From Kineococcus sp. NBC_00420 (lineage in GTDB: Bacteria; Actinomycetota; Actinomycetes; Actinomycetales; Kineococcaceae), in contig NZ_CP107930.1 of NCBI RefSeq assembly GCF_036021035.1, positions 3,906,001-3,970,000 of the forward strand: DNA of 64,000 nt, written 5' to 3'. Both the position numbers and the translations under genes were made by a program. Under the pieces are notes generated by a model that saw only the letters and a program-made list of their open reading frames with translations, had not been told where the DNA came from and did not search any database. This document shows, piece by piece, positions 41,123-61,884 of the stretch. The first letter of the stretch is position 1. Each line of letters begins with the position of its first letter.

Positions 41123-44396
<3,274 letters not shown>

Positions 44397-44398
44397 GC

Positions 44399-45295
44399 GT
44401 GCCGACGGCCACGACCGTCACGGCGACGTCGCCGCTGGTAGCCCCGGGCCACGGCTCGGGGCTGCTGGACGTCGTCCGGTACCGGTACCTGCTGAAGCTG
44501 CTGGTCCGCAAGGAGATGCGGGTCCGCTACCGCGGCTCCGTCATGGGTCTGCTGTGGTCCTACGTGAAGCCGGGCGTGCAGTTCGCCGTCTTCTACTTCG
44601 CGATGGGGGAGTTCCTCAAGCTCAACGAGAGCGTCCCCAACTTCGCGGTGTACCTGTTCTCCGGCATCGTGGTGATCAACTTCTACACCGAGGCGTTCGG
44701 CAACGCGACGCGCTCGGTGGTCGGCAACGCTCCGCTGATCAAGAAGATCTTCCTGCCCCGGGAACTGTTCTCGGTGTCCTCGGCGTGGGTCGCGGCGATC
44801 CACTTCCTGCCCCAGCTGATCGTCCTGCTGGTGGCCTGCTTCGTCACGGGCTGGCGTCCCGGGGTCGTGCAGATCCTGGCGGGTCTGCTGGGTTTCGTGA
44901 TCGTGGCCGTGCTCTCGGTGGGGCTGGGGCTGCTCTTCGGTGCGGTCAACGTGCTGTACCGGGACTTCGAGAACATCGTGGACCTGCTGCTGATGATCGT
45001 GACCTGGACCTCGCCCGTCCTCTACGACTGGCAGAAGGTCGCCGCCGCGACCGGCGGTCCGAACTCCCTGTTCATGACCCTCTACCAGCTGAACCCGGTG
45101 ACGGCGGCCGTCGAGCTGTTCCACTGGGCGTTCTGGTACCCGACCGGCGACGTCCGTGACGCCGTGGCCCCGGTCGTGCTGCCGCCGCACCTGCTGTGGT
45201 CGGGTCTGTGGGGTCTCCTCATCGCTCTCGTGATGCTCGCGCTGGGACAGTTCGTGTTCCGCCGCATCGAGGGCCGTTTCGCGCAGGAGCTGTGA
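44399..45295 (+). CDS. wzm: Polysaccharide ABC exporter permease (Wzm/RfbD type)
   Basis: A 298-residue ABC-2 permease with six helices. The N-terminal amphipathic start is LLKLLVRKEMRVRYRGSVMGLLWSY, typical of O-antigen/galactan exporters. AGGAGAG lies 7 nt upstream of the GTG. With the next gene it forms a transporter like Rv3783/Rv3781 of mycobacteria, implicated in moving lipid-linked galactan across the membrane. Its TGA overlaps the ATPase start by one base. Confidence 0.92.
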   Translation: MPTATTVTATSPLVAPGHGSGLLDVVRYRYLLKLLVRKEMRVRYRGSVMGLLWSYVKPGVQFAVFYFAMGEFLKLNESVPNFAVYLFSGIVVINFYTEAFGNATRSVVGNAPLIKKIFLPRELFSVSSAWVAAIHFLPQLIVLLVACFVTGWRPGVVQILAGLLGFVIVAVLSVGLGLLFGAVNVLYRDFENIVDLLLMIVTWTSPVLYDWQKVAAATGGPNSLFMTLYQLNPVTAAVELFHWAFWYPTGDVRDAVAPVVLPPHLLWSGLWGLLIALVMLALGQFVFRRIEGRFAQEL

Positions 45296-46074
45296 TGAGC
45301 GTGACGACTTCCTCCGACTCCCCGGTGCCGGGCGCCGCCGCGGCCGACGCACCCACCGCGATCGAGGTCCACGGCCTGGTCAAGGACTTCACCCTCCGCC
45401 ACAACCGCTCCCTCAAGGAGCTGGCGATGGCGAAGATCCGCAAGCGTCCGATCTCGGACAACTTCCGCGCGCTGCACAGCATCGACCTCGAGGTCCGCCA
45501 GGGCGAGTCCCTGGCCCTGCTCGGGTTCAACGGGTCGGGCAAGTCGACGCTGCTGAAGCTGATCTCCGGGGTCATGCGCCCGGACCAGGGCACCATCGGG
45601 GTCCGCGGCCGCATCGCCGGGCTCATCGAGGTCGGTGCCGGGTTCCACCCCGACCTGACGGGGCGGGAGAACGTCTACCTCAACGGCGCCATCCTCGGGA
45701 TGGACGAGGCGACGATCAACGAACGCTTCGACGACATCGTCGCGTTCAGCGAGATCGAGCGCTTCATCGACACCGAGGTGAAGTTCTACTCCTCCGGGAT
45801 GTTCCTGCGCCTCGCCTTCGCCGTCGCGGTGCACACCGACCCCGAGGTCTTCCTCATCGACGAGATCCTCTCCGTCGGCGACGAGCCGTTCCAGAAGAAG
45901 TGCCTGGCCCGGATCGAGGAACTGCGCGCCGAGGGCCGCACGCTCGTCATCGTCAGCCACGACCTCGACATGGTCGCGAACCTCTGCACCCGCGGGATCC
46001 TGCTCGAGCAGGGTCGCATCGTGGCCGACGACACCGCGACCCGCGTCGTCGCCCGCATGCGCGGTGAGGCGTGA
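45295..46074 (+). CDS. wzt: Polysaccharide ABC exporter ATPase (Wzt type, no C-terminal carbohydrate domain)
   Basis: A 259-residue ATPase. Walker A is LLGFNGSGKSTLLK, the signature is the variant YSSGM seen in polysaccharide exporters, and Walker B is EVFLIDEILSVGD; IEVGAGFHPDLTGRENVYLNG is typical of the family. The protein ends soon after the ATPase fold, so it lacks the sugar-reading C-terminal domain of O9a-type Wzt, as in the mycobacterial Rv3781. Its stop overlaps the next start (GTGA). Confidence 0.93.
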   Translation: MSVTTSSDSPVPGAAAADAPTAIEVHGLVKDFTLRHNRSLKELAMAKIRKRPISDNFRALHSIDLEVRQGESLALLGFNGSGKSTLLKLISGVMRPDQGTIGVRGRIAGLIEVGAGFHPDLTGRENVYLNGAILGMDEATINERFDDIVAFSEIERFIDTEVKFYSSGMFLRLAFAVAVHTDPEVFLIDEILSVGDEPFQKKCLARIEELRAEGRTLVIVSHDLDMVANLCTRGILLEQGRIVADDTATRVVARMRGEA

Positions 46075-47636
46075 CCGCCACGACGACACCGGGGACGGGG
46101 CGGCCGCGCACGGCCGGACCCGCCGCCTCCCGCTTCGGGACCTTCGTCCCCGCCCTCGTGGTCGGCGTCCTCGCGGCCGCCACCTTCGTCCTCGTCCACC
46201 GGGCCCTGGTCGACGACGCCTACATCACCCTCGCCTACGCGCGGAACCTCGCGCTGCACGGGACGTGGGGGCTGCTGTCGAACGTCGAGTCCAACACCGC
46301 GACGTCACCGTTGTGGGTGCTGCTGCTCGCCGGGGTCACCGCCGTCGTGCGCCGGCCCGTCGTCGCGCTGGGCATCCTGCACGTCGTGATGGCCGTGGCC
46401 CTCACCCTCTCGCTGACCTCCGCGGCCCGTCGCACGGGACTGCCGGCGTGGGTGGGTCCGGTCGCGGCGGTCGCGATCGGGGTCAACCCGCTGCTGCTGA
46501 GTTCCGTCGGCCTCGAGTCGGCGTTCCTCGTGCTGCTGCTGTCGTTGCTGCTGCTCACCGCGGTCCGCGGGGCCGCGCTGCCCTACGGGCTGGTCGCGGG
46601 CGCCGTCGTGCTGACCCGGATGGACGCCTCCGTCGTGGTCGTCGTCCTCACCCTGCTGACCCCGGCCGTGCTGAAGCGGGTCTGGATCGCCGTCCCCGCC
46701 GCCCTGGTCGTGGTGCTCCCGTGGATGGCGTGGAGCTGGTTCGCCCTGGGCTCCGCCGTCCCGGACACCGTCGTCATCAAGACGCTGCAGAAGGCGTGGG
46801 AGCAGTACGACGTCCACAACGGCATGCAGCTCTACGTCGAGGTCTACGGGCTGACGGCCGTCCTCGCGTTCCTGCCGGTGCTGCTGGGCGGGCTCGGTTG
46901 GTTCGTGCTCGTGGGGTTCGGCTGGACCCGTCGCCGGTCGGCGACGAGCGCCCCGAGCGAGCTGCGGGTGTGGCCGTGGCTGGCGCTGGGGATCGCGGGC
47001 GTCGCGCACTACGTGGCGCTGAGCGTCCTCGGCGTGCCGCCGTACCACTGGTACTACGCGGTGCTGGTGTCGGCGTCGACGATGGTCGGGGCCGCGGCCC
47101 TCGGTGCCTGCTTCCGCGGCCTGGAACTGCGCCCCGTCGCGCTCGGGGCGAGCGCGGCGGCCGTCGTCCTGCTCGTGGCGAGCGTCGGCTCCGACCTGCG
47201 GGCCGGGACGCCGTGGGCGCTGGCCCCGATCCAGACGAACTGGGCCCACCCGGCCCGCTACACCGAGATCGCCCTCGACGTGAAGACGATCCTGCAGCAG
47301 CAGGGGGGTCCGCAGTACGTGACCTCGCCCGGTGAGGTCGGGCACCTGGCCTACGTCTGCGACTGCGTCGTCGACTACTTCGGCGACCCGGCCCGGGTGC
47401 AGCCGATGATCGACCAGGTCGAGGCCGGGGCCTCGCCCCTGGAGAAGCGGCTGCTGGAGTGGAACTTCACGCACCGCGACGCGTCCGCACCGCCCGTTCC
47501 GGTGGCGGGGGAGTTGTTCCGCTACGACCGGGGGACCGAACCGCCCGCGGCGCAAGGGCTGCCGACCTGGCCGATCACCACGACCTGGGACATGGTCCCC
47601 TCCGACATCGTCCTGCAACCGGTGGGTGGCGCGTGA
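46071..47636 (+). CDS. GT-C membrane glycosyltransferase (AftB/ArnT-like)
   Basis: A 521-residue membrane protein with about ten helices in the first 370 residues and a soluble C-terminal domain of about 150 residues. The GT-C signature is in the first extracellular loop: VDDAYITLAYARNLA, with the acidic pair used by polyprenol-phosphate-sugar enzymes, followed by NTATSPLWVL. This DDAYITLRY pattern is found in AftB, the arabinofuranosyltransferase next to ubiA in mycobacteria, and the neighbours here are the same. Assignment to AftB itself is an inference from context; it is shorter (521 versus about 627). Confidence 0.72.
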   Translation: MTATTTPGTGRPRTAGPAASRFGTFVPALVVGVLAAATFVLVHRALVDDAYITLAYARNLALHGTWGLLSNVESNTATSPLWVLLLAGVTAVVRRPVVALGILHVVMAVALTLSLTSAARRTGLPAWVGPVAAVAIGVNPLLLSSVGLESAFLVLLLSLLLLTAVRGAALPYGLVAGAVVLTRMDASVVVVVLTLLTPAVLKRVWIAVPAALVVVLPWMAWSWFALGSAVPDTVVIKTLQKAWEQYDVHNGMQLYVEVYGLTAVLAFLPVLLGGLGWFVLVGFGWTRRRSATSAPSELRVWPWLALGIAGVAHYVALSVLGVPPYHWYYAVLVSASTMVGAAALGACFRGLELRPVALGASAAAVVLLVASVGSDLRAGTPWALAPIQTNWAHPARYTEIALDVKTILQQQGGPQYVTSPGEVGHLAYVCDCVVDYFGDPARVQPMIDQVEAGASPLEKRLLEWNFTHRDASAPPVPVAGELFRYDRGTEPPAAQGLPTWPITTTWDMVPSDIVLQPVGGA

Positions 47637-48142
47637 GCCCGTTGTCCTCGATCGCCGCGGCCGACCTGCGCGTCCTGCGCGGCGTCCAGTCCGCGGTGAC
47701 CTTCCCCGGCGCCGTCCCCACGGCGACGGCCCTCTCGCACGCGGGGGAGCACGCCGCCGCGTGGATCGGCCTCGGCACCGTCGGGTTCCTGCTCGACCGG
47801 TCCCGCCGCCGGGAGTGGGCGATCGCCACGGCGTCGGTGGTCGCCGCGCACGGCGCCTCCGTCGTGCTCAAGCGCGTCGCGCGCCGGCACCGCCCGCTGG
47901 ACCACCACGTCCAGGTCCGGGTCGGCACACCCAGCCGCTGGAGCATGCCCTCCTCGCACGCGACGTCGACGACGGCCGCCGCGGTCGCGTTCGCGCCGCT
48001 GCTGCCGGTCCCGACGTGGCCGCTGGTCCCCGCGATGGCCCTGTCCCGGCTCGTGCTCGGCGTGCACTACCCGAGCGACGTCACCGCCGGTGCCCTCCTC
48101 GGCGCCGCGACGACGGTCGTGGTCCGCCGGATCGCCTCGTGA
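47633..48142 (+). CDS. PAP2-type membrane phosphatase (Rv3807c-like)
   Basis: A 169-residue PAP2 phosphatase. The three active-site motifs are visible: KRVARRHRP (K-x6-RP), SMPSSHATS (PSxH variant of PSGH) and SRLVLGVHYPSDV (SR-x5-H-x3-D). Its neighbour Rv3807c in mycobacteria is proposed to remove the phosphate from decaprenyl-phosphoryl-5-phosphoribose, after UbiA. Here it precedes ubiA with a 4-base overlap, fitting that route. Confidence 0.88.
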   Translation: MSPLSSIAAADLRVLRGVQSAVTFPGAVPTATALSHAGEHAAAWIGLGTVGFLLDRSRRREWAIATASVVAAHGASVVLKRVARRHRPLDHHVQVRVGTPSRWSMPSSHATSTTAAAVAFAPLLPVPTWPLVPAMALSRLVLGVHYPSDVTAGALLGAATTVVVRRIAS

Positions 48143-49041
48143 CCACCCAGGAGCGCTCGATCACCCCGTCCACGTCCCGGCTGCCCGCCTGGTTGCGGGC
48201 GATGCGCCCGCGGCAGTGGGTCAAGAACGTCCTCGTCCTCGCGCCGGTGTTCCCGGCCGGATCGCAGGTCGGGCTGGACACCCTCACCGGGGTGGGCGTC
48301 GCGTTCGTGCTGTTCTGCCTCGTGTCGAGCTCGATCTACCTCATCAACGACGCGAAGGACGTCGAGGCCGACCGCGCCCACCCGCGCAAGCGGTTCCGCC
48401 CGATCGCGTCGGGGGAGCTGTCCTCCCGGACCGCCGTCGTCCTCGCGATCGTGCTCGCCGTGCTCGCCCTGGGGTTCGGCACCTTCTGGCAGCCGATGCT
48501 CGGGGTCGTCCTCGGGGTGTACTTCGCGATCCAGCTCGCGTACTGCTTCGGGGTCAAGCACGAACCCGTCCTCGAGCTCGCCTGCGTCGCGTCGGGCTTC
48601 CTGCTGCGGATGCTCGCCGGCGGCACCGCGGGTGACATCCCGCTGTCGGGGTGGTTCCTGCTCACCACGGCGTTCGGTTCGCTGTTCATGGCGGCCGGCA
48701 AGCGCTACGGCGAGGCCCGTCGCGGGGAGCTCACCGGTGAACCGGTGCGCCGGGTCGTGCAGAAGTACTCCACCACCTACCTGCGGTTCGTCTGGACGCT
48801 CGCGGCGACGGTCGTCGTCACGACCTACGCGCTGTGGGCGATCGAGGTCCTGGTCGCCCAGACCGGCACGAACCTCGCGACCCTGACCATCGTCCCGTTC
48901 ATCCTCGCCGTCCTGCGCTACGCCGTCGACGTGGACGCGGGCAACGCCGAGGAACCCGAGGAGATCGCCCTGCACGACCGGGTGCTGCTGGCCCTCGCCG
49001 TGGTGTGGTGCGGCTCGCTGCTGCTGGCGGTGTGGCTCTGA
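48139..49041 (+). CDS. ubiA: Decaprenyl-phosphate 5-phosphoribosyltransferase (UbiA family)
   Basis: A 300-residue UbiA-superfamily prenyltransferase with about nine helices. The acidic PRPP/prenyl motif is NDAKDVEADRAHPRKRFRP near residue 70, the form seen in Rv3806c, and a second acidic region lies near KRYGEARRGE. It would transfer ribose-5-phosphate from PRPP to decaprenyl phosphate, the first step to decaprenyl-phosphoryl-arabinose. The GTG overlaps the PAP2 stop. The epimerase genes dprE1/dprE2 are not in the window. Confidence 0.92.
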   Translation: MTTQERSITPSTSRLPAWLRAMRPRQWVKNVLVLAPVFPAGSQVGLDTLTGVGVAFVLFCLVSSSIYLINDAKDVEADRAHPRKRFRPIASGELSSRTAVVLAIVLAVLALGFGTFWQPMLGVVLGVYFAIQLAYCFGVKHEPVLELACVASGFLLRMLAGGTAGDIPLSGWFLLTTAFGSLFMAAGKRYGEARRGELTGEPVRRVVQKYSTTYLRFVWTLAATVVVTTYALWAIEVLVAQTGTNLATLTIVPFILAVLRYAVDVDAGNAEEPEEIALHDRVLLALAVVWCGSLLLAVWL

Positions 49042-49472
49042 TGCGCGAGTTCCTGCGCTCCGAGCGCATGGGCGAGGTCGTCCGGTTCCTCATCTCGGGC
49101 GGGATCGCCTACCTCGCCGACCTCCTGGTCTTCAACCTGCTGCTGCTCGCCGGGGTCGACTCGATCCTGGCGAAGGTCGTCTCCAGCGTCATCGCGATCT
49201 TCATCGCGTTCCTGGGCAGCCGCTACTACACGTGGCGCGACCGGCGCAGCGAGCACCCCGGCCGCGAGTACGCGATGTTCTTCCTGTTCTCCGCGATCGC
49301 GGCGGGCCTGCAGCTGCTGTGCCTGGCGATCACCCACAACGGCCTCGGCTGGACGTCGGCGCTGGCCGACAACATCTCCGGCAACGTCGTGGGGATGGCC
49401 ATCGCGATGGTGTTCCGGTTCCTGACCTTCCGGACGTTCGTCTTCCCGGACCGCTCCGTCACCCGTGCGTGA
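49041..49472 (+). CDS. GtrA family membrane protein
   Basis: A 143-residue four-helix GtrA protein, the second in this window (VVRFLISGGIAYLADLLVFNLLLL, KVVSSVIAIFIAFLGSRYYTW, YAMFFLFSAIAAGLQLLCLA, GMAIAMVFRFLTFRTFVF). It resembles mycobacterial Rv3789, which sits with the dprE/aft genes and is linked to arabinan synthesis. One base of the ubiA stop is shared with its ATG. It could carry decaprenyl-phosphoryl-arabinose or anchor an arabinosyltransferase. Confidence 0.87.
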   Translation: MREFLRSERMGEVVRFLISGGIAYLADLLVFNLLLLAGVDSILAKVVSSVIAIFIAFLGSRYYTWRDRRSEHPGREYAMFFLFSAIAAGLQLLCLAITHNGLGWTSALADNISGNVVGMAIAMVFRFLTFRTFVFPDRSVTRA

Positions 49473-50562
49473 CCGTCGCTTCCTGGGCCCCGCGCTGCTG
49501 GGGGCCGTGGTGGCCGTCGCGATCGTCCTCTCCGGGGTCGGCCAGGAGTCGTGGGAACGCGGCTACGACCTCGCGGTCTACCGCGACGGCGCACGGGACC
49601 TGCTGGCCGGTCGCGACCTGTACCTGCGCGAGACCTACCGCGGGCACTGGTTCGTCTACCCGCCCTTCGCGGCGGTCCTCTTCCTGCCGTTGCTGCTCCT
49701 CCCGGCCTCCGCGGACCTCCTCGTGTGGGACGCGGTGCTGCTCGGGGTCACGGTGTGGGGGACCTGGCGGGTCTTCCGGTCCTTCGGCGCCGCGCTGTCC
49801 GCGGGTCTCGGTGTCGCGTTCGTCCTGCTGAGCGACCCGTTCCGGGAGGCGCTGGTGCTCGGGCAGATCAGCCCGCTCGTCGTGCTCGGGCTGGTGCTCG
49901 GGTGCCTCTACGGCGGGCGGGGCGGATCGATCCCCGCCGCGTTGTCGGCGGCGGTGAAGGTGACCCCGGCACTCGTCGTGGCGGCGCTGCTGAACCGGCA
50001 GGCGCGACGGTGGTTCGCGCTGCCCGTCGTCGTGGTCGGGGCCGTCCTGACCCTGCTCGGGGTGCTCGTCTCACCCCGGTCGGCGGTGTCCTACTTCGGG
50101 GGCCTGCTCTGGGACTCCGCCCGGGTCGCCGCCCCGGGGACGACGACGAACAACTCCCTGGCCGGGGCGTTCGCCCACGCCGGGGTGCCGACGTGGCCCG
50201 CGCTGGTGCTCAGCGTCCCGTTGCTGGTGACCGTCGCCGTGGTGGCGCGGCGCTGCGACTGGCTGGACCGGACGGCTCGCATCCGGTTCGGGCTGCTCGT
50301 CTCCCTGGTGACGTGCCTCGTGTCGCCGGTGACGTGGTCGCACCACGCGCTGGCCGCGCCGATCGCCGTCGTGGTGCTGTTCGCCCTCGGGCGGTACCGG
50401 CCGCTGGTGGTGCTGGCCGGCGTCCCGTGGTTGCTGCCGGTGCTGCAGTGGGGGCCCGTGCTCAGCGAGACCCGGCCGGTGTCGTTGCTGGTGCTCGTCG
50501 TCCTGCTGGTGCGGCGACGACCGCGAGCCTCGGTCACCCCACCGGAGCCGGCGACCGCGTAG
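49465..50562 (+). CDS. GT87/DUF2029 membrane glycosyltransferase
   Basis: A 365-residue GT-C protein with about ten helices. The first loop has WERGYDLAVYRDGARDLLAGRDLY and the second YPPFAAVLFLP, the DUF2029/GT87 pattern shared by PimE and AftC-type polyprenol-phosphate-sugar transferases. It would act on the outer membrane face at the end of the arabinogalactan-like gene set. The GTG at 49465 overlaps the gtrA end by 8 bases; the last 29 bases overlap convergent ltrA. Whether it uses mannose or arabinose donors is open. Confidence 0.82.
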   Translation: MRDRRFLGPALLGAVVAVAIVLSGVGQESWERGYDLAVYRDGARDLLAGRDLYLRETYRGHWFVYPPFAAVLFLPLLLLPASADLLVWDAVLLGVTVWGTWRVFRSFGAALSAGLGVAFVLLSDPFREALVLGQISPLVVLGLVLGCLYGGRGGSIPAALSAAVKVTPALVVAALLNRQARRWFALPVVVVGAVLTLLGVLVSPRSAVSYFGGLLWDSARVAAPGTTTNNSLAGAFAHAGVPTWPALVLSVPLLVTVAVVARRCDWLDRTARIRFGLLVSLVTCLVSPVTWSHHALAAPIAVVVLFALGRYRPLVVLAGVPWLLPVLQWGPVLSETRPVSLLVLVVLLVRRRPRASVTPPEPATA

Positions 50563-53542: not shown

Positions 53543-55546
53543 TCAGCTGCGGGCGACCGTGCGGGTGGTCGAGTCGTAGGTGAGCGTTCCGCCCTGGAAG
53601 GTCTGCGAGACGCGGGAGCCGTTCCACTGCTCGTCGGCCGTGGGCATGCCCAGGGAACCGTTCTCCCACCCCTGGGCGGCCCAGGTGGTGAGGAGCGCCC
53701 CGCGCACCGCGTGCGCACCGGTCGCGGCGGAGTAGTAGATCGACCCGCCCTGGAAGGGGGTGAACCAGCCCCGTCCGTTCGGCAGGGCGGCGTCCCCGGA
53801 GGTGGGGAAACCCAGACCGTTCTCCCAGCCGAGCTGACCGTACTTCTGCAGGATCGCGCCACGGACCTCGTGGGCGCCGGTCGTGGGGGACCAGTAGATC
53901 GACCCGCCCTGGAACCGGGTGAACCAGCCCGCCCCGTTCGGCGTGGGCGCGTCGCTGCTCACCGGCAGGCCCAGGCCCGTCTCCCACCCGAGGGAGGCCC
54001 ACCGGCGGAGGATGTCCCCGCGGACGGCCTGCGCGCCGGTGGCCGCGGACCAGTAGATCGACCCGCCCTGGAAGTGGGTGTAGTAGGCGTTCCCGCCGGG
54101 AACCCGGCTGTCACCGGTCGTGGGGAAACCGAGGCCGGTCTCCCAGCCCATCGCGGCCCACTTGCTGCGGATGGCGCCGCGGACCTCGTGCGCACCGGTC
54201 GCCGCGGAGGCGTAGATCGAACCGCCCGCGTAGTGCTGGTAGGCGCCCTGGCCGTTCGGGGTGGTGAGTTCACCGGTGGTGGCCCCGCCCATCGTGCCGC
54301 CCGCACCGCCGAGGGCGTCGTACTGCAGCTGCACCGCACTGACGATGGCGAAGTAGTCCGACCGCAGGGCACCCAGCTGACGCAGTTTCGTCCCCGTCAC
54401 CGCGACGCTGCCGTTGGTGCAGACGAGGGTCGCGCCGGTGACGCGGCCGCCGTAGTCGCCGCGACCGTCGCGGGCCTTGACGACGATGCCCGTCGCGGCG
54501 CCACCGGGGGCGCAGCCCGCGTTGAAGGCCGCGGCGGACACGGTGTTCGTCCAGGCGGCCACGGTGTCCCCGGGGGCGGTGCGGCCCGGCGCGGAGAACG
54601 GGTCCTCCTTGGCGACGAGGTACGGCTTGGAACCCGCGACCGTCCACCCTCCGTTGGAGGAGGAGAACTGGGTGAAGGCGACCTGGCCGGAGGAGGCGCG
54701 GATCTCACCGGCGGTCGCGGCGATCGCCGAGTTCGTCGACGACGGCGTCGTCCAGGTCTGCGCCCCGTTCCTGTCCCGGCTCTCCGCACCCCGGTACACC
54801 TGGCACGCGGTCGTGTCGCAGATGTCGGTCTGCGCCTGCGCGTTCAGCACGGACAGCGCGTAGCTGCGGGCCGCCACGGCCTGGGCCTTGAGCGCCTCCG
54901 CGTTCCAGGATGAGGGGGACTCGGCGGGCACGACCCCGCGCAGGTAGGTCTCGAGCGGGACGTCGTTGACGACGGTCAGGGTCGGACCGGTGACGATGCG
55001 GATGACCCCGTCGTAGCGGACGAAGGAACCGTCGCCCTTCTGCAGCATCACCCCGTCGGGACCGCTGATGGTGACGGAACCACCCCACGTCTGGTTCCCG
55101 CCGCCGTCGACGGTGCCGGAGAGCCCGGAGCCGCTCGGCGCGACGACCAGCCGCTGCCCGGCGCCGACCTTCTGGTCGGTGCCGGAGATGGACAACGGCT
55201 GGCCCGTGGGCGCGTAGACGGCGACGGCGGCGTTGGCGAACGACGTCAGTCCGACCCGCAGCGTCCGGTTCTCGCGCGAGGCGACGTCGGTGCCCGGGTA
55301 GTAGAAGTCGAGGATCGTGCGGTAGCCCTGGCCGGCGACGGCGCGCGACTGGGCCCCCCACTGCGACATGCCGATCCCGTGGCCGAACCCGTGGCCCACG
55401 AACGTGAACGAACCCCCGCTGGCGGGGCGCACCTCGTCGGCGGCCGCCGGGCCCGCGGTGAGGGTTCCGGCCGTGAGGGCCAGGGCGGTTCCGGCGATGA
55501 CACCGGTGAGGCCGGTGACCAGGCGGGAGAGGGGGGTGCGTGTCAT
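53543..55546 (-). CDS. Secreted SpoIID/LytB-like protein with LGFP repeats
   Basis: A 667-residue exported protein: signal peptide (VTGLTGVIAGTALALTAGTL), then a SpoIID-like glycan-hydrolase domain (about 40-400), then four clear plus one degenerate LGFP repeat of about 53 residues. The GHGFGHGIGMSQWGA motif (51-65) precedes LETYLRGVVPAESPSSW, whose Glu209 corresponds to the lytic-transglycosylase-type acid of SpoIID. SpoIID-type enzymes act on denuded glycan strands, which fits being encoded with an amidase. LGFP repeats bind wall polymer in corynebacteria. GGAGGA lies before the ATG. It is the last gene of the operon. Confidence 0.9.
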   Translation of the reverse strand: MTRTPLSRLVTGLTGVIAGTALALTAGTLTAGPAAADEVRPASGGSFTFVGHGFGHGIGMSQWGAQSRAVAGQGYRTILDFYYPGTDVASRENRTLRVGLTSFANAAVAVYAPTGQPLSISGTDQKVGAGQRLVVAPSGSGLSGTVDGGGNQTWGGSVTISGPDGVMLQKGDGSFVRYDGVIRIVTGPTLTVVNDVPLETYLRGVVPAESPSSWNAEALKAQAVAARSYALSVLNAQAQTDICDTTACQVYRGAESRDRNGAQTWTTPSSTNSAIAATAGEIRASSGQVAFTQFSSSNGGWTVAGSKPYLVAKEDPFSAPGRTAPGDTVAAWTNTVSAAAFNAGCAPGGAATGIVVKARDGRGDYGGRVTGATLVCTNGSVAVTGTKLRQLGALRSDYFAIVSAVQLQYDALGGAGGTMGGATTGELTTPNGQGAYQHYAGGSIYASAATGAHEVRGAIRSKWAAMGWETGLGFPTTGDSRVPGGNAYYTHFQGGSIYWSAATGAQAVRGDILRRWASLGWETGLGLPVSSDAPTPNGAGWFTRFQGGSIYWSPTTGAHEVRGAILQKYGQLGWENGLGFPTSGDAALPNGRGWFTPFQGGSIYYSAATGAHAVRGALLTTWAAQGWENGSLGMPTADEQWNGSRVSQTFQGGTLTYDSTTRTVARS

Positions 55547-57500
55547 GTCGTCCTCCGGGGACTCGCGCGGTTCAGTGGTTCAGCGAGATCGAGGTGCTGC
55601 GGCGGACGGCGTCCCACACGAGGTAACCGCCCTGGAAGTCGAGGCGCAAGCCCCCCGGAAGGGGGTGCTCCTCGCCCACCGGGAAACCCAGCGGGCCGTT
55701 CTCCCAGCCCGAGGCGGCCCACGCGTCGCGGAACGCGCCGCGGACGGCGTGCGCACCGGTCGACGGCGACCAGTACACGGAACCGCCCTCGAAGTGGGTG
55801 TAGGTCCCCGGTCTCGTGGGCGTGCGCTGGTCGCCCGTCGTCGGGAAACCGAGACCGGTCTCCCACCCCAGTGCCGCCCAGCGGTCCCGGACCGCCCCGC
55901 GGACCTCGTGGGCCCCCGTCGCGGGGGACCAGTAGATCGAGCCGCCCTGGAAGTGGTTGTAGGCGCCGGCGCGCTGCGGGGTGCGCTGTTCGTCGGTGAG
56001 CGGCGCACCGAGCGCGGACGTGGCGCCGAGGGAGGTGAACCGGCCCGCGATGGCGCCGTGCACCTCGCGCACCGGCGTCGTGGGGGAGGAGTAGACGCTG
56101 CCGTAGCGGTAGTCGCGGCGCTGGACGCCCGTCGCGGACGTCGTGCGCCGGCCGCCGACGTCGGCGCCGAGGACGGAGCGGTCCCCGCCGAGGGCGATCC
56201 AGTGGCCCGTCAGCGGGTCGGCCGTCCCGCTCCACCACGAGGTCTCGCGGGCCGCGCCGGAGAACGTCAACGACAGGTGGACGTGGCTCGTGTGCGGGTC
56301 GGGACCGGTGTACGGCTGCCACCCGGCGGCGGGGTCGTACGCCTTCCACACCGAACGGTTCCAGATGACGTACATGACCCCGAGCCGGCGGGCGTTGACG
56401 GCGGTGTTCCCCTGCTCGTCCGGCGCCAGCAACCAGGTGGTGAACTCCTGGGCGAGGGCCGCCTGCGCCGGGTCCGCGGCGTCCAGCGCCCAGTCCAGCG
56501 CGCGGCCGTCGGAGTGCTCGGAGACCGGGACGCCGTTCGCCGGGCAGTCCCGGGAGGTGCCCACGGTCTGCTTCCCGTACGTGTCCCTGATCAGCTGCGC
56601 GAGCGCCAGGGTGCCCGGACGGGGTGCGGCGCAGGAGATCGGCGCCTGGTAGCGCGCGGGCAGCGCGTCGACGTCGGCGGGAACCCCCGCGGGGGTGCGG
56701 GGTGCCGCCGACGCCGCCGACGGCGCCAGCAGGCACGTCAACGTCGCGGCGAGGACTCCCGCCACGACGTTCCGCCGACGTCCCACGTCACTTCTGCTTC
56801 GCGGTGATCTTGCCGGTGGAGCGGTTCCAGGTCAGGGTTCCGCCCTCGAAGTCCATCCGCAGCCCGCCGTCGACGGAGTACTCGTCCTTGGTCGGGAAAC
56901 CCAGCCAGGAGTTCTCCCAGCCGAGACCGGCCCAGGTCTCGCGGAACGCGCCGCGCACGGCGTGGGCGCCGGTCGCGGGGCTCCAGTAGATCGAGCCGCC
57001 CTGGAAGTGGTTGTAGAAACCCTTGCCGTTCGGGGTCGCGGTGTCGTCGATCGTGGGGAAACCCATGCCGCGTTCCCAGCCGAGGGCGGCCCAGCGGGCC
57101 CGGATGTCCCCGGCGGTCCAGTGGGCTCCGGTGGCCCCGGAGTAGTAGATGGAACCGCCCTGGAAGTGCGTGAACCAGCCGCCCGCGGCCTTCGAGTCGC
57201 CCGTCACGGGGAACCCGGCGGGGCCGCCCTCCCAGCCCAGCGCGGCCCACTTGCTGCGGATCGCGCCGCGCACGTCGTGCGCCCCGGTGGCCGCGGACCA
57301 GTAGATCGAGCCGTTCTGGAAGTGGTTGTAGGAACCGCCCTTGGCCTTGGAGTCGTCGGTCGTCGGGAACCCGAGCCCGTTCTCCCAGCCGAGGTTCCCC
57401 CAGGCCGCCAGGATCGCGCCGCGCACCGTGTGCGCACCGGTGGTCCTGTTCCAGTAGATCGCGCCGCCGGTGTAGAAGCGGTAGGAACCGCTCCCACCGG
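53690..57500. repeat. Diverged DNA repeats encoding LGFP units (three genes)
   Basis: A unit of about 159 bp recurs some 13 times in three neighbouring genes, at 53.6-54.3, 55.6-56.1 and 56.8-57.5 kb. A core such as CAGTAGATCGA followed by a GCCCTGGAA-type end (plus strand) is nearly unchanged near 53891, 54050, 55930, 56987 and 57298. High identity between genes suggests recent duplication or gene conversion. Confidence 0.8.
55572..56786 (-). CDS. Secreted zinc-peptidase-like (VanY/M15-related) protein with LGFP repeats
   Basis: A 404-residue exported protein. After a signal peptide (VVAGVLAATLTCLLAPSAASA), the domain at about 40-180 has SEHSDGRALDW (His91, Asp98) and HTSHVHLSL (His168/His170), the zinc-ligand layout of VanY/M15-like carboxypeptidases and ARB-07466-like domains. 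About four LGFP repeats follow. Peptidase or lytic activity on peptidoglycan is inferred, not shown. The GTG start is 1 nt after the stop of the amidase gene, and the SpoIID-like gene begins 25 nt downstream. Confidence 0.82.
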   Translation of the reverse strand: MGRRRNVVAGVLAATLTCLLAPSAASAAPRTPAGVPADVDALPARYQAPISCAAPRPGTLALAQLIRDTYGKQTVGTSRDCPANGVPVSEHSDGRALDWALDAADPAQAALAQEFTTWLLAPDEQGNTAVNARRLGVMYVIWNRSVWKAYDPAAGWQPYTGPDPHTSHVHLSLTFSGAARETSWWSGTADPLTGHWIALGGDRSVLGADVGGRRTTSATGVQRRDYRYGSVYSSPTTPVREVHGAIAGRFTSLGATSALGAPLTDEQRTPQRAGAYNHFQGGSIYWSPATGAHEVRGAVRDRWAALGWETGLGFPTTGDQRTPTRPGTYTHFEGGSVYWSPSTGAHAVRGAFRDAWAASGWENGPLGFPVGEEHPLPGGLRLDFQGGYLVWDAVRRSTSISLNH

Positions 57501-58734
57501 GGGTGTCGTTCTCGGGGGTGGTCGGTGCGCCGAGCACGGCGGCCCCGCCGACGGCGGCGTACTTCGAGTCGATCGCGGTGCTGGTGGCGGCACCCATGAG
57601 CTGGGCGACGCGGGCGCGGATGCTGTCCATCCGGGTGAAGCCGACGTTGCCGGGGCAGGCCGTGAAACCCACGTCGCGGTGGGCGTTGATCGTCCGGAGC
57701 TTCACGGTCGTGCCGGGGGAGTAGCGCGCGGTGCCGCCGCCGGCGGAGGTGAGGTAGGTGACCCCGTCGGCGGGCAGGCCGTACATCGACAGCTTCCAGG
57801 CGATGACCTGCGCCACGGAGTCGAGGCACTCGGCGCTCGGCGCGACGGAGGTGAAGTCGCCCATCATCGAGACGCCGAAGGTGTCGGCGTTGAAACCACC
57901 GGCGTGGGCGCCCACGACCGGTTGGGTGATCCCGCCGGCGCGACCCTCCCAGATGCCACCGAAGCGGTCGACGACGAAGTTGTACCCGAGGTCCGCCCAG
58001 CCCAGGGAGACCGTGTGGTAGCGGTACATTCCGCGGATCACCGAGGGGACCTCGGACTGGCTGTAGGTCCCGCCGTCGGCGGTGTGGTGCACCACGCAGG
58101 CCTTGATGGTGTCGCTGTAGCTCGCGCCGCCCTTGCGCAGGGACTCGTCGGCGCCCCAGTCCGCCCGGGAGCGGATCCTCGGTTGCGGGACGGCCTTCGG
58201 GCTGGCCTTGACCTCCGAGGCGAGGGTGCTGCGGGAGAGCGCGGAGCTCTCACCGGCGTCGACGAGCTGCAGGTGGGCGTCGGCGACGTCGGTCGCGGGC
58301 AGGCGCACCTGGACGGTCGCGCCGGCGCCGAGGGCGCCGACCCAGGTGGGGTCCGAGGCCGTCACGGAGCGTCGCCCCTCGGCGGTGTCCGGGTCGGGTT
58401 CGGAGTCGTTGAGGGGGAGGTCGCTCCAGGCGGTCCAGTCGCCGCCGGCCTTGCGCACCCGCAGCGAGACGGTGTCCGTGGAGGCGCCGGAGGGGAAGGT
58501 CACGCCGAGCATGTGGCCGCCGTCGACGTCGACGGAGACGACGGTCAGCCCACCGGTGGAGAGCAGACCGGCGCTGCGCCGGCCACCGAGCGGGTAGGCG
58601 CGGGTCGAGCCACCGACCTGGAGGGCCGCGGGGGCCAGGGCGCTCGCGGAGGTCTGCCCGCACAGCAGGGCGGCGCCGGCCGCCCCTCCGGCGAGGAGGG
58701 CGCGACGGGACAGGGGGGTGGTGACGGACCGCAT
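56788..58734 (-). CDS. Secreted PGRP-type N-acetylmuramoyl-L-alanine amidase with LGFP repeats
   Basis: A 648-residue protein. The signal has a twin-arginine look (LSRRALLAGGAAGAALL). A beta-rich N-terminal region (40-180) precedes the PGRP/amidase_2 domain (186-380), which begins RSRADWGADE. Zinc ligands are His216 in VVHHTAD, His352 in NAHRDVG and Cys360; Tyr251 (LGYNF) completes the active site. Five LGFP repeats close the protein. It cuts the stem peptide from muramic acid. The ATG at 58734 was chosen for the signal peptide and the AAGGAGG stretch upstream. It leads the three-gene wall-enzyme operon. Confidence 0.92.
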   Translation of the reverse strand: MRSVTTPLSRRALLAGGAAGAALLCGQTSASALAPAALQVGGSTRAYPLGGRRSAGLLSTGGLTVVSVDVDGGHMLGVTFPSGASTDTVSLRVRKAGGDWTAWSDLPLNDSEPDPDTAEGRRSVTASDPTWVGALGAGATVQVRLPATDVADAHLQLVDAGESSALSRSTLASEVKASPKAVPQPRIRSRADWGADESLRKGGASYSDTIKACVVHHTADGGTYSQSEVPSVIRGMYRYHTVSLGWADLGYNFVVDRFGGIWEGRAGGITQPVVGAHAGGFNADTFGVSMMGDFTSVAPSAECLDSVAQVIAWKLSMYGLPADGVTYLTSAGGGTARYSPGTTVKLRTINAHRDVGFTACPGNVGFTRMDSIRARVAQLMGAATSTAIDSKYAAVGGAAVLGAPTTPENDTPGGSGSYRFYTGGAIYWNRTTGAHTVRGAILAAWGNLGWENGLGFPTTDDSKAKGGSYNHFQNGSIYWSAATGAHDVRGAIRSKWAALGWEGGPAGFPVTGDSKAAGGWFTHFQGGSIYYSGATGAHWTAGDIRARWAALGWERGMGFPTIDDTATPNGKGFYNHFQGGSIYWSPATGAHAVRGAFRETWAGLGWENSWLGFPTKDEYSVDGGLRMDFEGGTLTWNRSTGKITAKQK

Positions 58735-58774
58735 CTGGGCTCGTTCCTCCTTCTGGCGTGGGGCGACGATCACC

Positions 58775-58830
58775 CCGTGGGTCACACCCACACGGGTGAA
58801 CGCTCGGCTCCGGCATCGGCTGACCCACGG
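58775..58830 (-). promoter_or_regulatory. Structured 5' leader of the LGFP operon
   Basis: Perfect 10-bp arms CCGTGGGTCA (58821-58830, minus strand) and TGACCCACGG (58775-58784) close a 36-nt internal segment. That segment contains a small hairpin with CACCC and GGGTG arms and a GGAGCCGAGC stretch. It sits about 20 bases before the AAGGAGG site. A regulatory RNA is possible. Confidence 0.4.
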
Positions 58831-58876
58831 CGGACCTTGAGCGTGTCGCTGCTGTCCTGTGCGCCATCCGTCACGC

Positions 58877-58906
58877 AAAGTAGGTGACGATGCCAGTGGT
58901 GTACAA
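58877..58906 (-). promoter_or_regulatory. Sigma-A-like promoter of the LGFP operon
   Basis: On the minus strand TTGTAC (58906-58901) and TACTTT (58882-58877) are separated by 18 bp. Transcription would start near 58870, giving a leader of about 135 nt. Confidence 0.5.
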
Positions 58907-59040
58907 GGTGCGTGAGTGCACAACTGCGTAACACCTCTGTGGTCACTCACTCACTCTACGTCACAATCGTCCGTCCAGCCCCAGTTCTGAGGGCCGAGAT
59001 GTGGTCTTCACCAAGGGTTCGAGTTGTTCGGGAACGACGA

Positions 59041-59119: not shown

Positions 59120-60397
59120 CTACGTCGAACGGACGACCCCCAGAGGGGTGCCCGAGAACCCCGGGAAGATCGTCGCGAGCGAACCCGCCCCGCACCGCTT
59201 CTGCAGCACCTCGCCGATGATCGAGCGGTAGTCGCTCGTCCCGGCGAGGTCCCCGTCGACGAGCCGGTCGGCCCCCAGGCCCGGCCAGACGCCGTGGACC
59301 CTGCCGCCGACGACGCCGCCGCCGAGCAGCAGGACGGCGTTGCCGTGACCGTGGTCCAGACCGCCCGAGGCGTTCTCCCCGACCCGACGGCCGAACTCCG
59401 ACAACGTCACGAGGGTGGTGGAGGCGAAGGAGCCGCCGAGGTCGGTCGCGAAGGCCGCCAACGACGAGGACAGCTCCGTGAGCTTCTCCTTCATCCACCC
59501 GCCGTCGACCCGGCCGAGGCCGGCGTGCATGTCCCAGTCGCCGTAGTCCAGGGCGATCACCTGGACCGGGGCGCCGGACTTCTTGAGCACGGCGGCCTGG
59601 GCGAGCGCCTTGCCGAGGTCGGTGTCGGGGTAGCTCGCCCCGTTCGCCGGACCGCTCGCGGTGCTCTTGAGTGCGGCGACCCCCTCCATCGCGGTGATGA
59701 GGGTGCCCGCGGGGGCCGCGACCTCGGGGCGGGCGCCCGTGTGCATGCGACGCAGCGCCGCGTGCCAGGTCGGCCGGTCGTCGCCCGGGCCGATGAGGTT
59801 GAAACCCGCGAGGGACGTCATCGTCGTCTCCTGGCCGGGCCCGGCGAACGAGCGCGGGGTGGTGTTGGAGATGCCGACCACGTTCAGCACCGAACCCGTG
59901 CCCAGCGAGCCGAGGGTGCGGTCGATCCAGCCGGTGCGGACCGAGGAACCCGGGGCGGCGAGTTCCATCTGCTCCATCGCGGCGAAGTGCGAACGCGTCG
60001 GGTCGGACTGGCCGACGGCGTGCACGACCCCGAAGGTCCCGTTGCGCCACAGCGGCATCAGCGGGGCCATCGCCGGGTGCAGGCCGAACGTCTGGTCCAG
60101 GCCGAGCAGCGTGGACCGCGGGACGGCGATGTTCGGGCGGGCCGCGTAGTACCCCGCGTCGCCGCCGGGCACGACGGCCGACAACCCGTCGAAACCCCCG
60201 TGCAGGCTCAGCACGACCAGGGTCTCGCCGTTCCAGCCGGACCCGGCGAAGGAGACCTGGGTGGAGACGTCGCCCACGGTGTAGGTGGTCGCACCCGCGG
60301 CCGCCGCGGCCAGCGCCGCGCGCAGCACGGTCCGGCGGGAGACGAGCTTCGAACCCTCGTCGCAGCCGCAGCGGTCGGCGTCCTCGAACTTCGACAC
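59120..60397 (-). CDS. DUF1501 family secreted protein
   Basis: A 425-residue protein with a twin-arginine signal: KLVSRRTVLRAALAAAAAGA near residue 20, preceded by a short Cys/Asp-containing leader. The mature part has LVVLSLHGGFDGLSAVVP, ALDYGDWDMHAG and LSEFGRRVGEN, then GLDHGHGNAVLLLGG, the alkaline-phosphatase/sulfatase-like signature of DUF1501. The activity is unknown. It is exported folded through Tat. It starts with GTG behind GGAAGGA and lies 14 nt after the DUF1800 gene, its constant partner in many bacteria. Confidence 0.9.
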   Translation of the reverse strand: MSKFEDADRCGCDEGSKLVSRRTVLRAALAAAAAGATTYTVGDVSTQVSFAGSGWNGETLVVLSLHGGFDGLSAVVPGGDAGYYAARPNIAVPRSTLLGLDQTFGLHPAMAPLMPLWRNGTFGVVHAVGQSDPTRSHFAAMEQMELAAPGSSVRTGWIDRTLGSLGTGSVLNVVGISNTTPRSFAGPGQETTMTSLAGFNLIGPGDDRPTWHAALRRMHTGARPEVAAPAGTLITAMEGVAALKSTASGPANGASYPDTDLGKALAQAAVLKKSGAPVQVIALDYGDWDMHAGLGRVDGGWMKEKLTELSSSLAAFATDLGGSFASTTLVTLSEFGRRVGENASGGLDHGHGNAVLLLGGGVVGGRVHGVWPGLGADRLVDGDLAGTSDYRSIIGEVLQKRCGAGSLATIFPGFSGTPLGVVRST

Positions 60398-60411
60398 GTC
60401 AGGGTCCTTCC

Positions 60412-61884
60412 TCAGCGGATCGTGAACGTCGGGCCGTCGAGCGTGAGCGCGACGACGTAGCGCAGGTTGTCCTGGACCCACCGGTCGTTCCTCGAGACCG
60501 GCGCTCCGGGCTGGCGGTTCGCGTACATCAGCAGCGCCGCCTTCTCGTCCGCGGTCAACGGGCTCCCCGTGAGGCGGACGCCCAGCGCGTCGACCAGCGC
60601 GCCCCAGGTGCCGGGGAAGTCGCCCAGCAGGTCCGGCGCCTTGGCGAAGGGCAGCTCGGGCGGGTACCAGCCGGCGGCGAAGTCCATGTGCCGGTTCCAG
60701 CGCGAGAGCGTGCCGCTGGGGGAGATCCAGGCCGCGGCCACGTCGGGGTACCCGTTGGGGGCGCCCCAGGCCATCGGCGCGTGCCCCTGGTCCAGCACGT
60801 GCCAGAACAGCTTGGTGATGCCGCCGGTGCCGCTGGACTCCATGCCGGTGCCCAGCGTCCGCAGGGTCGCGACGTAGTCCTCCTGCGGGGTGCGGACCTT
60901 CTGGCCCGCCGCGGACCAGAACTCGGCGGAGTCGAACAGCGTGCGCAGCACCGCGACGACCTGACCACCGGTGCTGGTCCAGGTCTGGGCCATCCGGTCG
61001 ATCAGCGCCGCCGGGGGGTTGTCGGAGACGAACCGGGTGGCGATCCTCGTGCTGAGGCGGCGCGCGGTGGCCGGGTGGACCGCCAGCCAGCGCAGGTAGG
61101 CGTCGATCCAGCCGTTCCCGTCCGCCGGGGCGTGCGGGGGGACGACGAAGCCGAAGACGGTGCGGCCGCCGCCGTCGTGGCGACCGGCGTCGTAGACCGC
61201 GGAACCGTCCGCGGCGATCGTCAGGCCGGTCAGCAACCGGGCGGAGTTCTTGACGTCGGCCTCGGTGTACCCGGCGTCGACGCCGACGGTGTGCAGTTCC
61301 AGCAGTTCCCGACCGTAGTTCTCGTTCGGCTTCGCCGCGGTCGAGCTCGCGTTGTCCAGGTAGTTCAGCATCGCCTGGTGGCGGGCCGAGGCGACCAGCA
61401 TGTCGGGGAAGCTCCCGAACGCGAACCGGCGGATCACGTTGCGGTCGTAGTCCTGCCGGCTGTACCAGGCGTCGGAACTCGGGCAGGTGACGTGCAGGAC
61501 GTTGTTGAAGACGTCGACGACGACCTCGAACAGCTGCCGGTTGCTCCAGATCTGGCGGGCCAGCGTGAGGCGGCCCGTCTCGAGCATCGCGTTCCACTCC
61601 GTCGCCGCGTACCCGCCGGCGTAGAGCTGCTGGGCGCTGCGCCAGTAGAAGCTCATCCGGCCGGCGAAGGAGTCCATCGCGGCGTCGTCGACCGCGCCGG
61701 GAGCGAGCTGGCGGTCCAGCCAGGCCGCGGTGCCGAGCCTCGCGACCTCGGCCAGGGACGCCGGGGTGGGGCCCCAGCTGGCGCGGCGCAGCAGGTGCAG
61801 CCGGTCGGCGGCGCTCTCGTGCGCGAACGGCGACGCCGCGGGGCGTCGGCGGCCTCGGGTGACGGTGGCGGCGGAGGAAGGCAC
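60412..61884 (-). CDS. DUF1800 family protein
   Basis: A 490-residue, largely helical protein of DUF1800. The start DRLHLLRRASWGPTPASLAEVARLG, the central NENYGRELLELHTVGVDAGYTEADV and the LTGLTI and FGFVVPPHAP stretches are typical. No signal peptide is visible from the GTG at 61884; it could be carried out with its DUF1501 partner. The role is unknown, though the DUF1800/DUF1501 pair is widespread as a unit. The start is weakly supported (only AGG upstream). Confidence 0.88.
   Translation of the reverse strand: MPSSAATVTRGRRRPAASPFAHESAADRLHLLRRASWGPTPASLAEVARLGTAAWLDRQLAPGAVDDAAMDSFAGRMSFYWRSAQQLYAGGYAATEWNAMLETGRLTLARQIWSNRQLFEVVVDVFNNVLHVTCPSSDAWYSRQDYDRNVIRRFAFGSFPDMLVASARHQAMLNYLDNASSTAAKPNENYGRELLELHTVGVDAGYTEADVKNSARLLTGLTIAADGSAVYDAGRHDGGGRTVFGFVVPPHAPADGNGWIDAYLRWLAVHPATARRLSTRIATRFVSDNPPAALIDRMAQTWTSTGGQVVAVLRTLFDSAEFWSAAGQKVRTPQEDYVATLRTLGTGMESSGTGGITKLFWHVLDQGHAPMAWGAPNGYPDVAAAWISPSGTLSRWNRHMDFAAGWYPPELPFAKAPDLLGDFPGTWGALVDALGVRLTGSPLTADEKAALLMYANRQPGAPVSRNDRWVQDNLRYVVALTLDGPTFTIR

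Follow-up and report, generated by a model that had tools for sequence, protein, structure and literature searches.

Three adjacent genes of Kineococcus sp. NBC_00420 raise the question whether exported proteins with three different wall-hydrolase folds, all ending in LGFP repeats, work on the cell wall together, and whether they do so where a secondary wall polymer is attached. The genes, here called A, B and C in their 5′ to 3′ order, are located on the minus strand between positions 58734 and 53543 of a 64-kb stretch of DNA (positions 3906001–3970000 of the 5.43-Mb single contig G000:C1; referred to as the window). A first-pass annotation of this window had described them as a coupled set of an amidase, a zinc peptidase-like and a SpoIID-like protein with a common wall anchor, and had linked this set to a neighboring galactan/arabinan cluster. 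The reading favored here, to which we give slightly better than even chances, is that A, B and C are cooperating exported peptidoglycan hydrolases, which their LGFP repeats retain in the wall, and thereby a vegetative counterpart of the SpoIID-SpoIIP machinery of endospore formers and of LytB-LytC of Bacillus subtilis. Found in this study were the fold of B, the permutation within the SpoIID domain of C, the reappearance of the catalytic set in combination with different anchors and the neighborhood of SpoIID and GlfT2 genes.

Open reading frames (ORFs) for all three genes are present at the coordinates assigned to them beforehand. Gene A (56788–58734) starts with an ATG preceded by AGGAGG, gene B (55572–56786) with a GTG located 1 nt past the stop of A, and gene C (53543–55546) with an ATG that is preceded by GGAGG and located 25 nt past the end of B. 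The two intergenic gaps of 1 and 25 nt are repeated identically in a second Kineococcus genome (G005), and the N-termini of all three proteins are, as judged by eye, of signal type. Searches with the Pfam model LGFP (PF08310) yielded, above cut-off, tandem stretches of five repeats in A (E 1.6e-90; 56803–57534, minus strand), four in B (E 5.1e-60) and five in C (E 2.9e-87), four of the latter being listed in the genome search (53657–54289, minus strand). Both the adjacency and coupling of the genes and the presence of 4–5 LGFP repeats at the end of each of three different secreted wall-hydrolase folds, as initially described, were thereby confirmed.

Gene A encodes a predicted exported N-acetylmuramoyl-L-alanine amidase of the PGRP/Amidase_2 type. 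Pfam recognizes the Amidase_2 domain with an E-value of 3.4e-15, and the protein aligns with PGRPs through the segments VVHHTAD and AHRDVGFTACPG, which cover both His and the Cys. The positions expected from PGRPs correspond to H216, H352, C360 and Y251; we take the His, His, Cys set to be zinc ligands and assume a role in the zinc site or in cutting for Y251. Similarly, the motif SRRALLAG at residue 9 is presumably a twin-arginine-like signal. Judged by its domain and its His, His, Cys set, A is a PGRP-type amidase with predicted cutting activity. Just past the end of the window (G000:C1, ~3970725–3972500), ~6–7 kb upstream of A, a paralogue of A is encoded (L019), likewise a PGRP amidase bearing LGFP repeats. 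G002 and G006 also have a comparable second copy close to the operon.

For the catalytic half of B (approximately residues 26–200, positions 56187–56711 on the minus strand), no Pfam or NCBIfam model was found up to an E-value of 0.1. An AlphaFold2 model of B reached a pLDDT of 95.9. Foldseek placed pneumococcal VldE in each of the top five matches of this model (E 8.7e-7 to 2.5e-5), a second aligner superposed B and VldE with a Z-score of 12.0 (105 residues, 2.2 A; the next entry reached only 4.8), and a profile built from B retrieved the VldE sequence at 4.8e-8. The claim that B is zinc peptidase-like could thus be upheld and sharpened by model, Foldseek and profile: as modeled, B has the VldE/MT3 (LAS) fold of an L,D-endopeptidase. 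This assignment is supported by the residues of the domain, as H91, R95, D98, H165, H168 and H170 are invariant across 53 aligned relatives of B, and all 53 retain the counterparts of VldE H301, D308, H370, H373 and H375. In the part of PMC11667670 concerned with these residues, H301, D308 and H375 are given as predicted metal ligands and H370, D372 and H373 as required, and VldE (Spr1875) is described as an L,D-endopeptidase that cleaves L-Ala|D-Glu in cross-linked stems. By analogy, the most likely cleavage site of B would be the L-Ala|D-Glu bond within cross-linked stems. B differs from the pneumococcal MT3 domain protein at the position of D372 (see below) and is for this reason not filed as a VldE but as a relative with a possibly VldE-like mode of action. 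Further differences are its C-terminal LGFP tail, where VldE has an N-terminal wall-binding module named after LysM, and two conserved Cys. These two residues, C52 (53 of 53) and C81 (52 of 53), are conserved across the actinobacterial group and perhaps form a disulfide.

Gene C encodes an exported protein that matches the Pfam model SpoIID at 1.4e-27 (above cut-off) and the model SpoIID_LytB at 3.2e-52, and a 36-row profile of C matches the SpoIID structure 4rwr at 1.2e-51. The catalytic Glu (E209, in a GVVxxE-type motif) is invariant in the 36 aligned rows and the protein retains the two Cys of the clostridial zinc motif, so that C, by sequence, carries a SpoIID/LytB domain with its catalytic Glu. 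The domain does not fit SpoIID of endospore formers in one respect: the GHGxGMSQ segment is not at the C-terminal end. The motifs follow each other in the order GHGFGHGIGMSQWGA (from residue 51), VVPAES (containing E209, from 205) and ICDTTACQVY (from 242), and C matches all three solved SpoIID sequences tested (from two species) as two stretches in reversed order, with residues 157–282 of C corresponding to 63–198 and residues 8–54 to 273–319 of the 4rwr chain. Foldseek with the AlphaFold2 model of C (pLDDT 92.5) yielded SpoIID of C. difficile at 5.3e-6, plus many weak unrelated matches. Residues 56–371 superpose on residues 71–308 of this protein (Z 16.1, 212 residues); the N-terminal segment of C lies outside the superposition, and the sequence match places it at the opposite end of SpoIID. 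NAD-kinase-like matches to the middle of C (Z ~6) were rejected as reflecting a common beta arrangement.

The permuted order is not confined to this genome. It was found with profiles of the two parts, used in place of regular expressions that had left 17 of 29 loci undecided, in 29 of 29 tested loci (best-scoring loci only), and in 71 of 72 ORFs across all loci searched, with redundant entries counted. The only non-permuted ORF, a short second SpoIID of canonical order in G006 (L098 on contig C6), is a locus of the same search that was left outside the 29-locus count; both orders thus occur in one genome. An open-licence literature search for SpoIID with circular permutation gave no match, which is weak evidence of novelty, and the consulted part of a review does not mention permutation (PMC6934232). 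The permuted domain represents a structural variant that models derived from spore formers match in two pieces.

In a further step, the same trio was sought in relatives. Genes A, B and C are contiguous in 8 of 11 genomes of the genus, so that their adjacency is not confined to the source genome, and the preservation of the order in these 8 genomes indicates that the arrangement is not due to chance. In the remaining three, A and C share a 3.1-kb contig (G009), A and B are found together with C ~26 kb away (G001), or A and C are located on separate contigs (G003). Among the 8, G010 has no more than an LGFP tail ahead of B, where its contig starts. Across the order, SpoIID was detected in 126 of 297 genomes. 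The first-pass annotation had noted that SpoIID-like enzymes are best known from sporulation and that no sporulation genes are in view; outside sporulation, such proteins are ordinary here, and they are common in these bacteria outside endospore formers. Three Kineococcus species are described as non-endospore-forming in the source consulted in part (PMC7601052), and in the literature searches made, no studies on the function of SpoIID-domain proteins in Actinobacteria were found.

The co-occurrence of B and SpoIID was examined in the order sample for 46 genomes with strong B matches (E < 1e-40; 109 genomes have matches at 1e-3, the weaker ones of which were dropped). SpoIID is present in 43 of these 46 genomes vs 126 of 297 overall (Fisher p 3e-15, not corrected for kinship). 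Both genes are on one contig in 30 of the 43 and lie within 10 kb of each other in 23 of these 30; outside the family of the window, this applies to 15 of 20 same-contig pairs, among them divergent genes in G015. An A-like amidase accompanies 8 of the 15 B-C stretches outside the family, in gene orders such as C-A-B (G067, G036, G052), A-C..B (G164, G234) and others. In a class sample of 374 genomes, with a B threshold of E up to 1e-20, B was present in 118, SpoIID in 181 and both in 100 genomes, and at least seven clusters outside the order (G385, G372, G357, G340, G336, G315, G451) were recognized by eye from matches within 9 kb.

With regard to the common anchor, the solved PS1 sequences 6swz and 6sx4 match the tails of A, B and C, and the three tails thus contain the same LGFP repeat as PS1 of Corynebacterium glutamicum. 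In PS1 this repeat is attached to a mycoloyltransferase in a mycolate wall, whereas here it is found on predicted peptidoglycan hydrolases. For three proteins of C. glutamicum, the passage cited describes an interaction between their LGFP domains and the peptidoglycan layer (PMC12113857). The whole genome contains 46 LGFP matches in 11 genes. The eight genes other than A, B and C encode the second PGRP amidase, a CAP protein, a GDSL esterase, an Ltp-lipoprotein-domain protein, an Excalibur protein and three others, and thus include folds that do not cut the wall. LGFP repeats occur in 105 of the 297 genomes of the order sample, of which 53 contain GlfT2 and 52 do not (odds ratio 2.35, in related genomes). 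A galactan-specific anchor was therefore rejected as a rule. The assumption that the repeats tie the set to arabinogalactan is not supported, given these counts, the presence of LGFP on non-cutting proteins and the observation that the set elsewhere mostly has other anchors; LGFP is a general surface repeat and a mark of neither the operon nor galactan.

The LGFP tails appear to descend gene by gene. Among 90 LGFP repeats of the genus, the nearest neighbor is the same gene in another species in 81 cases, another gene in another species in 5, another repeat of the same tail in 4 and another gene of the same species in none, and exchange between tails within the operon was rejected for the genus, as no sign of it was seen. 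In other loci, the catalytic domains are combined with CWB2 (amidase and SpoIID of G234), FG-GAP (amidase of G164), PG_binding_1 (B of G112), LGFP (amidase of G027) or repeats unnamed in Pfam (A and B of G067). At several loci outside the genus, a tail is common to two or three members of the set, and one actinobacterial locus (L156) encodes an amidase and SpoIID pair with common CWB2 tails. In G067 (L152) and G052 (L154), the tails of amidase and B share 97 and 99% identity inside each genome, as opposed to 48–52% between the two genomes; from their sequences, they look as if homogenized by gene conversion. Two further loci from Modestobacter and Blastococcus (L038, L047) have an LGFP amidase ORF ahead of a long ORF that contains 15 or 13 LGFP stretches and lacks a clear Pfam enzyme domain. 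In the genome studied here, a Cys-rich, exported-looking protein with six LGFP stretches (L014, G000:C1 ~4567 kb), for which Pfam gives LGFP alone, resembles, as we assume, the methylamine dehydrogenase light chain.

The galactan/arabinan cluster noted initially 3 kb away from the operon is indeed present. It extends on the plus strand from 41200 to 50562 and encodes Glf, GlfT2, an ATP-binding cassette (ABC) exporter pair that is nearest to galactan/teichoic exporters, PAP2, a decaprenyl-phosphate phosphoribosyltransferase, GtrA and GT87; a distance of 3.0 kb separates the end of its last gene from C. A 521-aa ORF inside the cluster (46071–47636) has no Pfam match; its location suggests a glycosyltransferase. 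Arabinogalactan is reportedly part of the Kineococcus wall, going by the title of a 1993 report by Yokota.

SpoIID and GlfT2 are both found in 34 of 297 genomes. Of the 25 genomes that have them on the same contig, 22 have SpoIID no more than 20 kb away from GlfT2, across four families (f1, f8, f9, f17), with distances read by hand from match tables and 2 of the 22 resting on weak GlfT2 matches (G120, G208). The three exceptions are separated by 163 kb (G015), 51 kb (G222) and 453 kb (G283), and in 9 genomes the two genes are on different contigs. Outside the family of the window, the genes are within 20 kb in 14 of 17 genomes. Further wall-polymer genes were encountered at single loci: C adjoins AftA in G003, and a GH43-LGFP gene adjoins A in G001 and G003 and B, beside A, in the sister genus genome G011 (L166, L175 and L164 across the three genomes). 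From its sequence, the GH43-LGFP enzyme is a candidate for trimming arabinan or galactan. Near the non-family B-C clusters, of which three stretches were tested, a cytidylyltransferase and a CDP-glycerol glycerophosphotransferase (G027) and GT2 genes (G067, G036) were found. The idea that rhamnose genes separate SpoIID from B in other families was rejected, as the 212-aa gene tested (L148) is a CoA-transferase.

Taken together, these observations are consistent with the following sequence of events. A would cut the MurNAc-L-Ala bond, remove stem peptides and bare the glycan, B would open cross-linked stems by a cleavage within the stem, and C, acting after A, would cut the bared glycan as a lytic transglycosylase, with all three retained in the wall by their LGFP repeats. 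The logic of stripping combined with glycan cutting, already contained in the first-pass annotation, is supported. In the relevant passage of PMC6934232, the engulfment machinery combines an amidase, an endopeptidase and the lytic transglycosylase SpoIID, which acts on denuded glycan. Compared by activity only, A, B and C would possess the summed activities of this SpoIID-SpoIIP (DMP) machinery and may use them to turn over the wall or separate cells during vegetative growth. SpoIIP unites two functions in a single protein, whereas here these would fall to a PGRP amidase and to a protein of the VldE fold, and the SpoIID domain of C is permuted and bears a wall-binding repeat. The conserved set would supply stripped substrate next to a SpoIID gene, which makes a direct test possible.

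A second known system is LytB-LytC of B. subtilis. Both of these proteins carry CWB2 repeats, where the operon has LGFP, and the amidase family of LytC differs from that of A. The actinobacterial pair of L156 resembles them in sharing CWB2 between amidase and SpoIID. The passage on the B. subtilis teichoic/teichuronic cassette lists lytC-lytB-lytA within it, so that there, too, a SpoIID/LytB-domain gene adjoins an amidase gene inside a wall-polymer cassette, and it lists no VldE-type gene (PMC8753576). The proximity of SpoIID-type genes to wall-polymer genes, here and in lytABC, is a hint of a general coupling between hydrolases and polymer assembly. The anchor would be exchangeable, with LGFP used in Kineococcaceae, where the C gene is near arabinogalactan genes. 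More far-reaching, and put forward tentatively as an idea that is improbable rather than probable, is an actinobacterial, vegetative and wall-anchored equivalent of the SpoIIP-SpoIID chemistry in which amidase, VldE-type endopeptidase and permuted SpoIID act in sequence and clear glycan at the sites of secondary-polymer attachment, with anchors swapped (LGFP, CWB2, FG-GAP, PG_binding_1) and in some genomes homogenized. The data show the genes with their order, folds, key residues, conservation and neighborhood, from which we infer activities and substrates, the order of action, wall binding by LGFP, the physical cooperation of the three proteins and their place of action.

Several findings speak against the favored reading. 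At the position of VldE D372, B has a Ser (Ser167), so that the VldE residue set is incomplete, and the passages on VldE describe the D372 Ala mutant as inactive (PMC11667670). B may therefore be weak or altered; across the 53 rows, the position is occupied by Asp in 41, Asn in 6, Ser in 3, Gly in 2 and Glu in 1, with Asp in B of G005. In C, one zinc His of the clostridial motif is replaced by Ala. B was not found in 2 of the 11 genus genomes (the drafts G003 and G009), and in G001 a TGA is present in the frame of B across the full match. In 20 of the 43 genomes with strong B and SpoIID, the two are not within 10 kb of each other (in 13 they are split between contigs, in 7 a long distance separates them on the same contig), and no amidase was seen in 7 of the 15 B-C clusters outside the family, where amidases may have been undercounted, as the gene caller missed B in L153, L171 and L164 and C in L157 and some fetched stretches stop at contig edges. 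In addition, the genomes are related, and the association tests overstate their independence. The presence of SpoIID and that of GlfT2 are negatively associated (odds ratio 0.45, fewer joint occurrences than independence predicts), from which it follows that neither needs the other. Strong B was detected in 0 of the 14 non-family genomes with SpoIID near GlfT2. The proposed tie to wall-polysaccharide genes hence holds for SpoIID, and for the whole set it is seen only in Kineococcaceae, since elsewhere SpoIID is found near GlfT2 without B.

Some of these findings would fit other explanations. B. subtilis LytB, which belongs to the same family as C, is listed as not hydrolyzing peptidoglycan in the consulted part of PMC10653849, and a title cited there states that CwbA stimulates amidases. 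C could accordingly be a non-cutting amidase stimulator, as LytB (CwbA) is for LytC, and the operon would comprise two hydrolases and an activator. The location of lytB and lytC within the polymer cassette (PMC8753576, in part) and the existence of the amidase-SpoIID pair of L156 would be in line with this; however, the catalytic Glu is invariant in 36 aligned relatives of C, both Cys of the clostridial motif are retained, and B adds an endopeptidase, as in SpoIIP. We consider this explanation unlikely. The three proteins might also be autolysins that serve cell separation or turnover independently, with no more than a promoter and a widespread anchor in common and without sequential cooperation. 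The use of LGFP by 11 diverse genes, the occurrence of B or SpoIID alone or apart in many genomes and the gene-by-gene evolution of the repeats all point in this direction, whereas the fact that this catalytic set is clustered in several families that differ in gene order and anchors does not, and we regard independent action as doubtful.

Very improbable, finally, are exported lysins directed against other bacteria or foreign wall fragments. This idea can draw on the MT3 domain, which according to the passage cited owes its name to a tape-measure protein of a phage (PMC11667670). It is at odds with gene-by-gene inheritance, a conserved upstream region and the position of SpoIID genes near the cell's own wall-polymer genes, and the six flanking genes compared with Pfam suggest no such role, with no search aimed at immunity genes. 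Cooperating hydrolases of the cell's own wall remain the reading that we prefer.

The conserved region upstream of the operon (58735–58990, minus strand; GTGACGTAGAGTGA...GAGCGTTCACCCGTGTGGGTG) can be aligned in all 8 genomes sampled, and a core of the form GTGACGTA[GC]AGT is found in 7 of the 8 aligned regions. The 21-base pattern occurs a single time in the genome with up to 3 mismatches allowed. No Rfam family reached its gathering score in the 64-kb window, and the sole permissive match (E 0.5), a Yersinia small RNA model on the opposite strand, was rejected. Folding of the upstream alignment revealed two-sided changes in 3 of 47 pairs, and no RNA structure is claimed. A scan for sigma-70-type promoters found 0 vs 0.1 expected. 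The six flanking genes compared with Pfam, all within the window, correspond to DUF1501, DUF1800, LtrA, APH and a DUF559-like family, with one gene giving no match. The DUF1501 and DUF1800 genes form a pair (59120–61884) directly upstream of the operon on the same strand, and a DUF1800-like gene also starts upstream, as judged by eye, in G005, G002 and G004.

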